NCBI GenBank assembly: GCA_030149205.1
Contig: JASBSB010000001.1
Coordinates: 260,357-324,356 of the forward strand
DNA from: Candidatus Heimdallarchaeota archaeon
Lineage (GTDB): Archaea > Asgardarchaeota > Heimdallarchaeia > Heimdallarchaeales > Kariarchaeaceae
Length of the DNA stretch: 64,000 bases
Reading direction: 5' to 3'
Shown here piece after piece: positions 23,633 through 34,666 of this stretch. Position numbers and translations under genes: made by a program. Numbering within the stretch: the first letter of the stretch is position 1; each line of letters starts with the position of its first letter. The notes under the pieces were generated by a model. It had not been told where the DNA came from and did no database searches. It was given only the letters and a program-made list of their open reading frames with translations.

Positions 23633-24316
23633 ATGGTTAAAGGTTCTAGTGTTGACAAGAATGAGGGTAAATCTGACCTCATCCCAGAGAAAAAATCTGT
23701 TGCCTTCATACATATCAGGGTTGACCCTGAATTCAAAAGAGACCTCCTTGAAAAGGTTGAGGAAGAAGATACAAATCTTACGGCTTATGTGGTAAACACT
23801 CTTTCTGCTGACATTTATAAAAAGGAGATAGAAGAAGAGGATGAGGAGGATCTATTGAGAGAAGATATACTTGGAGCACTGGAGAACCTAGAAAGAAGAG
23901 TAGAAATTCGACTTTCCACACTTCAAGATACTTTTAATTCATTGATAGGTAAATTAATTGCACTTGACACCAGAAAATCTTCCACTAGAAGAGGAAAAAG
24001 TAGAAAACAACAGGCATTTGTTGAGGAAGACGATGAACTCTCAGATGTATTGGATAAGGATGAGGTCCTCAAGATAAGACCAGAAGAGATGGTTTACTCA
24101 AGGGTAAAACGTTTTGTAGAAACTAAGGGTGTGGCTGAGGTTCCTGATTTTCAAGAAATTATTTTGCACTTAGAAACAGATGCACAGATAAAGGAGTTTT
24201 TCCAACGACAAGAAGAGACTTTCCCCGGTTGGAAAGAGTCAATGGTTACAGATGCAATTGAAGAGGCTATTGAAGAACTGGGTATTTCTCTTAAAGGAAG
24301 AGGTGGTGGAGCATAG
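23633..24316 (+). CDS. Protein with putative ribbon-helix-helix DNA-binding segment
   Basis: 'SVAFIHIRVDPEFKRDLLEKVEEEDTNLTAYVVNTLSADIY' resembles CopG/Arc-type RHH; acidic helical remainder. Confidence 0.55.
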   Translation: MVKGSSVDKNEGKSDLIPEKKSVAFIHIRVDPEFKRDLLEKVEEEDTNLTAYVVNTLSADIYKKEIEEEDEEDLLREDILGALENLERRVEIRLSTLQDTFNSLIGKLIALDTRKSSTRRGKSRKQQAFVEEDDELSDVLDKDEVLKIRPEEMVYSRVKRFVETKGVAEVPDFQEIILHLETDAQIKEFFQRQEETFPGWKESMVTDAIEEAIEELGISLKGRGGGA

Positions 24317-24330
24317 CTAGACGACCATTT

Positions 24331-25887
24331 GTGAGGCGAAAATCTAATGAAAAGCGAAATCAAGAGGCAATAGACCTTTTTAATCTGTTCAATCGGCTTC
24401 AACCAGTTACCAGGAACAAGTATTTAACTGTGATTCATTCTTTTGGAGAGTTTTTAATGGTTCATAAAAAATCATTTTGGGATGTTGCTCCATTAGACGT
24501 AAAAAAGTTCTTATTGGAAGGAGGTACACCACAATCTAAAAGCATCCTAAAAACCTTCTATAGAGTGCTCATAGACACAGGAGAATTTCAGGGTGATAAC
24601 CCTATAACTCTTCTAAATGAGATCGAAGAACAGGAGAAGGAGGCGGGAATTGAGATTGAAGCTCCAAAAACATCGGCAGAAACTGTTTTGGAAACATTAA
24701 GAGATGAGAATCTAAGTTTTAGTGAAGAGTTTGTCCCTGCAGAAAACCGGGTGGTGGAAAAGAAAAAGCCCCCAAAACCAATTATGACACTTACTGACCT
24801 AGAACATTTACTTAAAAGAACTCATCATATAAGGGAAAGAGCAATTCTAGAAATTTTATTTGCCACAGGTGCAAAACTCAAAGAGATAATAGAGTTAAAC
24901 GTCTCAGATATTGATTTGGAGGGTAAAAAAATAATGTTTTTTGAAACTGATACTCAGATCTCAAGAGTTATTGCGATGCCAAAACGAGCTTTACCATTCT
25001 TAAGACTATACGAACGATGGCGCTTAAGGCAACTTTCACCATCAAACGCTTATTTTATTACCAAAAAGACAAAGGAGAGAATGAGACCCACAACAGTTTC
25101 CTCATGGCTAGCTAGACTTCAACGAGATAAAGAACCTGGTCAGAGATGGACGATTGGGGATTTTCGAAAACGGGCAATTCTTCAACATTATTGGTTGACA
25201 AAGGATTTAGCTGCAGTCAGTAGATTTGCAGGATATAAAAGACCGGAGGCAGGGTTACGCGTTGTTAATCAAATTCTTGAAGATAGAGGTATAGAAAATC
25301 TAAAAGATTTGACTGAACTACCAGAATTTGATGAACTTCAACGAGACAAGAAAAAATTGACACCAAGACTCAATGATCAATCAACTACAATCACCATAAG
25401 TTTAGATCCTGATGAGCTGGAAATGATTCGAAAATCTGGTTTAACACCAACTCAAGCAGTTAAAACTGTCTTTTCACTTAAAGACCTATACTCTTCAGTT
25501 GCTCCTGCTGCCGCAGCAGCTCCGGTAGCAAGCTCACCTCTTGCCAAGGCCATGTCCGTAAGTGCTGCACCTCCACCATCCAGACCCAGTGGGGGAAGTT
25601 CTGGCCCTAGATCAGAAGGGAAGTCAACGTTTGTTCCTGGGCCTGTTGGCGGTGGACCACCTTCGGGACCATCTTCAGGAGGCGGAGGTGGTTTAGGATT
25701 CTTAAGTGAGCTCAAATCTAAACTGCAGGAAAGAAATAAAGCAAAGCAAGAAGGAAAAATACCCTCTGAAATAACAATTGGACCTCAAGATCACTTTGCC
25801 AATGTTCAGATTTTAGACTCAAAATCGAAGGATGATTCCGATTCTAAATCTGAAGAAGAAGATGAGAAAGAACAAAAGGAAGACTAA
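24331..25887 (+). CDS. Tyrosine recombinase-fold protein, predicted catalytically inactive, with Pro/Gly-rich C-terminal tail
   Basis: SAM-like N-domain 'VTRNKYLTVIHSFGEFLMVHKKSFWDVAPLDVKKFL'; catalytic-domain scaffold 'RERAILEILFATGAKLKEIIELNVSDIDLEGKKI...WTIGDFRKRAILQHYWLTKDLAAVSRFAGYKRPEAGLRVVNQI'. GTG start. Confidence 0.75.
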   Translation: MRRKSNEKRNQEAIDLFNLFNRLQPVTRNKYLTVIHSFGEFLMVHKKSFWDVAPLDVKKFLLEGGTPQSKSILKTFYRVLIDTGEFQGDNPITLLNEIEEQEKEAGIEIEAPKTSAETVLETLRDENLSFSEEFVPAENRVVEKKKPPKPIMTLTDLEHLLKRTHHIRERAILEILFATGAKLKEIIELNVSDIDLEGKKIMFFETDTQISRVIAMPKRALPFLRLYERWRLRQLSPSNAYFITKKTKERMRPTTVSSWLARLQRDKEPGQRWTIGDFRKRAILQHYWLTKDLAAVSRFAGYKRPEAGLRVVNQILEDRGIENLKDLTELPEFDELQRDKKKLTPRLNDQSTTITISLDPDELEMIRKSGLTPTQAVKTVFSLKDLYSSVAPAAAAAPVASSPLAKAMSVSAAPPPSRPSGGSSGPRSEGKSTFVPGPVGGGPPSGPSSGGGGGLGFLSELKSKLQERNKAKQEGKIPSEITIGPQDHFANVQILDSKSKDDSDSKSEEEDEKEQKED

Positions 25888-33301: not shown

Positions 33302-34666
33302 AGTAATGCTAGCATTCTAAAGGAAATTATTGACGATAATGAAACTAAAATATTTACACTCTTTGATGTAGAGAAAGGAAGACTTTCAATTGAGGAAAGA
33401 CAGGGTGATAGGAGTGTATTTTTAGAAGTTAAAGTATTTACAGCTGATGCGAGACTCAAGGGTATTCTTTGGTTTTTTGGAGATAATAGAGCTTATATTG
33501 AAGACATTAGAAACCTAAAGGCTAGAAAAGAGAGTCAGAAAGTAGATATGATTCTGATAGCTAAGGGAGGAACTACGGCAGCTGGGAGTAAAATTCTAAA
33601 AGCTTCGAAGGTTAAGTTAATCAAAGACCTAGACACTGTCAAAAAGAAGAGTTCGAAAAAATCAAAAACCAGCAAGAAAAAATCAGGAGAAAAAAGTAAC
33701 CTCCAAGTTGAAGAAGATTTTCTCGATGAGATTCCCAAATCAGATTTAATTGAAAAGGGAATGAACCTTGTCAAAACTAGAGAACCTGAAAGCATTAAAG
33801 TGACAAAAGTTAAGGATTATGAAGAAGCGTTTGATGTTAAGGGATTTTCTTCAACAGCTGATTTATTAATTGTATACAGGACCATCGAAAAAAACCCAGT
33901 AGGAGTAAAGGAAATTAGAAAATTCCAATCGTATCTTGAGGAGCACGAAAATGTAGCTGCCGGGATCATTGTACCAGACAAATTTACAACTGCAGCTAAA
34001 AGAGATGGACAAAAAGCAAAGATTACCCTGATCTCTTTAAAAGAGGAGAAAGAAACAGCAATTTCTCCAGAAATTGAGTACTTGACAGAACGGTTGATTA
34101 GAGGAGCAATTGAAATTCTAAAGTACCGAGGATACAAAATTTTACCTGAAAAAAATAAGGCATATGACCCATTAAGAGCAGGAAGCGAAAAACTGGGTAA
34201 ATACATTATCGCTGAGGAAAGTTCAGAAAAAACATTAGTGCTAGTACCCCAAGATGAAGTTGTTAGAGTTGCTACGGTCCGAACCATGAAGGAACAGATG
34301 GATCACCTAGGTATCTCTTCTGGTATACTCATCCCCATCAAAAGATTCACGTATACTGCAGATAGAGAATGTCAACTCTCTGGAATCGTCCCCTTACGTA
34401 AAAATCACCCAGTATTTAACATCTTCAACAATGGCCTCGTTCCAGAACATGTAATTCTTGATAAAAAAGCAACAAGAGAGGTTTTAAAGAAGTTCCATAG
34501 TAAAATTCACCAAATCCCAAAAATATTTGATCGAGATCCAGCTGTATCCATGTTGGGTGCAAAAGAAGGTGACTTGTTAGAAATTAGGAGAGGGATAGAT
34601 TCAAAATCCTATCGTATAGTTATTCCAACACCAGGTGTTGATAGAGTAGAGACGGACGAAGATTAA
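33302..34666 (+). CDS. RNA polymerase subunit H / RPB5 homologue with extended tandem jaw-like region (first ATG at 33548; coding signal extends 5' to about 33302)
   Basis: C-term 'NGLVPEHVILDKKATREVLKKFHSKIHQIPKIFDRDPAVSMLGAKEGDLLEIRRGIDSKSYRIVI' is RpoH/RPB5; preceding segment aligns by eye with the RPB5 N-terminal jaw; upstream frame encodes SNASILKEIIDDNETKIFTLFDVEKGRLSIEERQGDRSVFLEVKVFTADARLKGILWFFGDNRAYIEDIRNLKARKESQKVD. Confidence 0.82.
   Translation, partial: SNASILKEIIDDNETKIFTLFDVEKGRLSIEERQGDRSVFLEVKVFTADARLKGILWFFGDNRAYIEDIRNLKARKESQKVDMILIAKGGTTAAGSKILKASKVKLIKDLDTVKKKSSKKSKTSKKKSGEKSNLQVEEDFLDEIPKSDLIEKGMNLVKTREPESIKVTKVKDYEEAFDVKGFSSTADLLIVYRTIEKNPVGVKEIRKFQSYLEEHENVAAGIIVPDKFTTAAKRDGQKAKITLISLKEEKETAISPEIEYLTERLIRGAIEILKYRGYKILPEKNKAYDPLRAGSEKLGKYIIAEESSEKTLVLVPQDEVVRVATVRTMKEQMDHLGISSGILIPIKRFTYTADRECQLSGIVPLRKNHPVFNIFNNGLVPEHVILDKKATREVLKKFHSKIHQIPKIFDRDPAVSMLGAKEGDLLEIRRGIDSKSYRIVIPTPGVDRVETDED

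Follow-up and report, generated by a model that had tools for sequence, protein, structure and literature searches.

We describe a two-gene locus on the forward strand of the window, as we call the whole 64,000-nucleotide stretch of Candidatus Heimdallarchaeota archaeon DNA analysed here (genome of 3.3 Mb). The second gene encodes a protein with the fold of a tyrosine recombinase and almost none of its catalytic residues, which we name pXer; the first encodes a putative ribbon-helix-helix (RHH) protein. An Asgard mobile element with an RHH gene and an active integrase is probably the source of this pair, which the host would have domesticated and which would now bind DNA without cutting it. 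This reading is drawn from sequence comparison, structural models and genome context.

Recombinase fold and catalytic residues

The frame at 24331-25887 is a real open reading frame of 518 amino acids (aa) counted from a GTG at 24331. A first-pass annotation, made from the letters alone, had ascribed to it a tyrosine-recombinase fold on a Xer-like scaffold, and this is confirmed. The protein matches PF00589 (Phage_integrase) in Pfam at 3.1e-11, above the curated cut-off, and the top 50 PDB fold matches of its AlphaFold2 (AF2) model are all tyrosine recombinases, with XerA first (9.5e-11); pLDDT in this model is mostly 90+ in the core-binding (residues ~10-110) and catalytic (~155-330) domains. 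Archaeal XerA (NF040815; PDB 5hxy, 4a8e) has the same two-domain fold and is the best structural match. The match to NF040815 itself, at 3.3e-15 and 56.4 bits, does not reach the equivalog cut-off of 220 bits. The SAM-like nature of the N-terminal domain, claimed in the same annotation, is seen as a weak match in the window protein (0.16) and reaches 8.7e-5 in orthologues.

The features of the locus, numbered in residues of pXer where applicable, are the following.

23633..24316 (+): putative RHH partner gene, 227 aa, with an N-terminal ribbon-helix-helix, a long coiled coil, a charged linker and a C-terminal helical domain (adjacency, weak PDB matches, homology to mobile RHH proteins)
24313..25887 (+): dead integrase gene, pXer (probable ATA start; Pfam, orthologue comparison)
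24313..24642 (+): core-binding (SAM-like) domain, residues 1-110 (AF2 pLDDT 92-95; SAM_1/SAM_4 Pfam matches in orthologues; aligns with the mobile integrase)
24775..25302 (+): degenerate catalytic domain, residues 155-330, net charge ~+15 (PF00589, AF2, residue and charge table)
24874..24876 (+): former Arg-I, Lys188 in the window protein (K/Q/R among orthologues)
25156..25167 (+): former HxxR box, now G-D-F-R, with His-II lost and Arg-II (R285) invariant (alignment)
25234..25236 (+): former His/Trp-III, Tyr308 in the window protein (Y/F/T/M in orthologues)
25261..25263 (+): former nucleophilic Tyr, Val317 in the window protein (V/L/I in orthologues)
25372..25503 (+): post-catalytic segment TITIxLxxxExxxIRxxGLTPTQAIKxxxSLxxLY, superficially RHH-like (kept in both host families)
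25504..25689 (+): Gly/Pro/Ala-rich, low-confidence (disordered) region (AF2 pLDDT <50, residues 396-460)
25690..25749 (+): C-terminal amphipathic helix (..LSELKxxLxxRxK..) (AF2 helix 460-479; E, L, L and R invariant in 8 tails)

Orthologue comparison suggests that translation probably starts at ATA 24313, six codons before the GTG, giving 524 aa. In the letters ATAG this ATA shares bases with the upstream gene's stop codon, and it comes with a good Shine-Dalgarno sequence; the same ATAG overlap, with a strong Shine-Dalgarno, is found in G034 (L006 1483), so that the arrangement is common to two species of the genus, and more distant homologues have an ATG or TTG start at the equivalent residue. 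The closest relative among named genome contigs, and the only one found there, is in a Heimdallarchaeota metagenome-assembled genome (61% identity).

Just one of the six catalytic positions is retained in the window protein: Arg-I is K, the β-hairpin Lys is T, His-II is G, His/Trp-III is Y and the nucleophilic Tyr is V, while Arg-II is still R. His-II and His-III are 27 residues apart, and over this stretch the protein aligns with active relatives without a gap, so the register is secure here. The pattern extends to the orthologues: the His-II position holds G, S, M, T, K or R, the His-III position Y, F, T or M, and both His are absent from every orthologue having those positions. At the nucleophile, V, L or I occupies the site in the 9 orthologues readable there and in the fragment from G028. 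Arg-II is invariant, the sole catalytic residue kept in all orthologues, and the most conserved block surrounds its motif. Two substitutions noted earlier stand for the window protein but not for the whole family, since Arg-I is K in three orthologues, Q in three and R in four, and three orthologues (G030, G033, G028) may retain an aligned Lys at the β-hairpin. pXer has the fold of a tyrosine recombinase but neither the nucleophilic Tyr nor the full RKHRH pentad of an active one; as judged from these alignments, the cleavage chemistry is lost family-wide.

We also considered residual DNA strand chemistry, in which another nucleophile, for example the Tyr of the SLxxLY segment acting in trans, would work with Arg-II. 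The invariance of Arg-II, the four orthologues that keep Arg-I and the presence of the SLxxLY Tyr in most orthologues are compatible with it. Against it, no orthologue has retained either His, six have K or Q in place of Arg-I, and a search for a conserved Tyr near the active site found none: the SLxxLY Tyr lies ~78 residues past the former nucleophile, in a low-confidence segment of the C-terminal extension, and is missing in G028. We regard such chemistry as extremely unlikely.

Conservation of the gene pair

Pairing was counted over 228 Asgard genomes. The dead integrase and the RHH gene both occur in exactly the same 10 of them and are adjacent in 10/10, always with the RHH gene first and the integrase second. 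In a class-wide search the orthologues were confined to two families, the remaining matches being ordinary XerA or other active-type integrases; two genomes of the same family, G031 (1.4 Mb) and G035 (82% completeness), have neither gene. Each genome carries one copy of the pair, surrounded by host genes in conserved neighbourhoods, and the common neighbours include genes for an Rpo5-like RNA polymerase subunit and a gamma-glutamyltranspeptidase. As for the partner, known RHH proteins (56B, ArtA, AvtR and DUF1778) take the first four places among its PDB sequence matches, though all are weak (0.006-0.57); its AF2 model is extended-helix-helix, with non-significant fold matches to NikA-N and Arc. 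These results are consistent with assigning it tentatively to the DNA-binding RHH type.

The gene is under strong purifying selection. Since synonymous divergence (dS) is saturated or high, non-synonymous divergence (dN) was compared with that of XerA in place of a full dN/dS analysis. Between G025 and G026, the closest pair of orthologues, the core-binding domain has a dN of 0.023 and the catalytic domain one of 0.028, against 0.027 for the active XerA of the same genomes; the linker and the tail evolve faster than the core domains. These values bear on whether the locus might be a decaying remnant or a still-mobile element in place of a domesticated gene. Ancestry in a mobile element and the decayed copies of a related element in one genome (see below) could be read in that way, but in both families every complete locus has an intact gene, in single copy and among syntenic neighbours, and decay is unlikely because dN in the core domains is as low as that of active XerA. 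This explanation is largely refuted, and we give it the least credit of all those considered.

Mobile relatives and ancestry

One of the ten genomes, G033, holds the domesticated pair and, in the same gene order, several copies of a mobile-looking pair in which an RHH gene lies directly before, or overlaps, a tyrosine integrase gene. Three of these integrases have all six catalytic residues intact, and some other copies are decayed and broken by stops. Apparently minimal mobile elements, consisting of the RHH gene and the tyrosine integrase, are present in G033 as divergent copies at L087 695-2180, L088 183-1554, L089 1687-2881 and L128 2729-3724. The mobile integrases differ from pXer in having the active residue set, a short linker, no C-terminal extension and multiple copies; the gene order is the same and the proteins are homologous.

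Both members of the pair match their mobile counterparts. The dead protein aligns with the mobile integrase profile over 259 columns and both domains (probability 99.4, E 8e-22), versus a probability of 91.6 and the catalytic part only with host XerA, which was represented by a single sequence. The partner matches the mobile RHH profiles at E 7e-7, and when the 228 genomes were searched with a mobile RHH profile, the G027 partner came up at 1.4e-5, aligned along almost all of its length. A phylogenetic tree unites the dead sequences in one clade (100/100), whose sister group is the mobile integrases (97/86), and sets the XerA proteins apart; this tree holds three mobile integrases and no Crypton sequences, and has long branches elsewhere. 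Kinship with Xer itself, as the first-pass annotation implied, is thus not favoured: the window genome has its own intact XerA (G000:C1:193538-194113), and pXer departs from XerA in its position in the tree, in a score far below the equivalog cut-off and in the loss of all but one catalytic residue.

The simplest reading of the two sets of matches, together with the sister position of the dead clade, is that the whole two-gene module was domesticated. The tree suggests that descent ran from mobile to dead, as does the consideration that an active enzyme cannot readily arise from a dead one. If inheritance was vertical, domestication would most simply be placed before the split of the two host families. 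The term domesticated, proposed at the outset, thus finds support in the conserved catalytic loss, the purifying selection, the syntenic non-mobile loci and the tree.

Other origins were looked into. A viral source was rejected: scanning viral contigs with pXer gave one short match, and for the mobile integrase nothing closer than distant matches turned up in viral contigs, plasmids or phages. Inspection of the open reading frames around other Asgard integrases (G178, G177, G227, G106, G097, G037, G092) revealed no RHH neighbour. The many A5 matches in other Asgards were also set aside, as the inspected ones are RHH regions fused to response-regulator-like domains and unrelated to the pair. 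At L142-L149 in other Asgard genomes there are genes, often in tandem pairs, for proteins of ~300 aa that combine an RHH-like region at the N terminus with a response-regulator-like domain at the C terminus.

The coexistence of domesticated and active mobile pairs in G033 raises the possibility that the pair acts mainly as a repressor of surviving related elements, a captured immunity against RHH-integrase elements that could work through competition of dead derivatives for attachment sites. In the nine remaining genomes with the pair, however, no mobile copies are detectable, and pXer has diverged greatly in sequence from the mobile integrase. We consider a role of this kind quite unlikely.

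Predicted function and known systems

DNA binding without cleavage is the likely function of the dead integrase, as four features suggest: the core-binding and catalytic folds are both retained, the catalytic domain carries a net charge of +10 to +20 among orthologues, the Arg-II motif is invariant, and the partner is a putative RHH protein. The Arg-II motif sits in the DNA-contacting part of the tyrosine-recombinase fold. The same protein could instead serve as a protein-protein scaffold that makes no contact with DNA, for example as a ribosome- or RNA polymerase-associated factor. A PDB chain labelled RaiA (9i5v) contains a Xer-like core (E 3.4e-7), so the fold may occur outside recombination, and the genome's sole Rpo5-like gene is a conserved neighbour. 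Yet 9i5v matches the generic catalytic core only, more weakly than real Xer proteins do, for which reason a ribosomal role based on it was rejected; the Rpo5-like gene lies outside the operon; and both the RHH partner and the strongly positive charge speak for contact with DNA. A scaffold of this type is unlikely. The 9i5v chain itself (chain 14, 401 aa, 'Ribosome-associated translation inhibitor RaiA') has a Xer-like recombinase core and is possibly a fusion of Xer and a hibernation factor.

On the same window, a gene at 33548-34666 (+) encodes a restriction-endonuclease-like (Mrr_cat) region fused to the C-terminal domain of RNA polymerase Rpb5/RpoH, and is the sole Rpb5_C match in the window genome (93.5% complete). 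Nearly all Rpb5_C matches in the class sit in open frames well >100 aa. Eukaryotic RPB5 is likewise long, with an extra N-terminal domain, and the gene is therefore possibly an Asgard form of the eukaryotic RPB5 architecture.

For the domesticated pair, we envisage the following course. An ancestral Asgard mobile element would have carried genes for an active tyrosine integrase and an RHH protein. In becoming a chromosomal gene of the host, the integrase would have lost the Tyr and both His, with Arg-I and the hairpin Lys relaxed, while keeping the C-shaped DNA clamp of core-binding and catalytic domains and gaining a longer linker and a tail of ~200 residues. The dead integrase and its partner would now bind one or more specific DNA sites without cutting, forming a stable nucleoprotein complex in which the flexible tail and terminal helix would recruit another factor, and this complex could serve gene regulation or local chromosome architecture. 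Several points weigh against this proposal: the mobile relatives come from one genome only, the orthologues number only 10, from two families, the RHH matches of the partner are weak though consistent, and no inverted repeat or operator palindrome is conserved upstream of the pair across loci, leaving no candidate binding site.

The extension that would carry the recruiting function runs ~200 residues beyond the catalytic domain and ends in the conserved helix. Its RHH-like segment could not be matched to a true RHH (hhalign probability 0.1 against the partner RHH, and no PDB match). In L007, L009, L010 and L027 the C terminus of the dead integrase is an acidic tail that contains LPDF(D/S)(L/I) and recalls an SSB-type tip; this feature is absent from the window protein and from family f4. 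Some orthologues have the short motif LLARRRK in the tail helix, a likeness to Ena/VASP, in which the RRRK residues of VASP (R273-K276) are needed for F-actin binding (PMC4543927). The motif is degenerate in the window protein (LQERNK), Pfam and PDB searches of pXer gave no match to a WH2 or Ena-VASP actin-binding domain, and an actin link through this helix was set aside as no more than a lead.

Dead tyrosine recombinases in the service of other functions have precedents. TnsF of Tn6022, a Tn7-like target selector, is a tyrosine recombinase that has become inactive; it binds a specific DNA site and recruits a partner (PMC10293859). TnsF is transposon-borne, acts together with TniQ, carries zinc fingers at its N terminus and has only part of a catalytic domain, whereas pXer is chromosomal, keeps both the core-binding and the catalytic domain in full, is extended at the C terminus and has an RHH partner; Pfam scans of pXer gave no zinc-finger family, and its neighbours are host genes. 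The Crypton-derived DUF3504 genes (KCTD1, ZMYM2/3/4, QRICH1, WOC) are tyrosine recombinases kept by their hosts without catalytic residues, many of them as transcription regulators, and yeast Cbf2/Ndc10 is a centromere DNA-binding protein (PMC3212892); its relation to recombinases is cited in PMC5771398. DUF3504 genes lost Arg-II, the one residue that pXer keeps, and had no RHH partner domesticated with them. There is no DUF3504 Pfam match in the pXer family and its nearest sampled relatives are the Asgard mobile integrases, in a tree with no Crypton sequences, which suggests an independent origin as far as sampled. By analogy, pXer likely works like TnsF or DUF3504/Ndc10 and, as far as sampled, belongs to neither. 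A closer parallel with Ndc10 would be an archaeal centromere-like system, with the pair marking chromosomal sites and the tail tying them to a partner from the cytoskeleton or the segregation machinery, possibly Asgard actin, a gene for which is present in the window genome; we consider it very unlikely.

Eukaryotic genes and a transposon target selector already provide documented examples of domesticated dead tyrosine recombinases. The case described here is chromosomal and conserved across two Asgard families; an active mobile relative persists, and two of the element's genes were apparently taken together. The route from a mobile element to a host DNA-binding complex, the binding being predicted, may thus be traced in the archaeal group closest to eukaryotes, in a compact and testable system.
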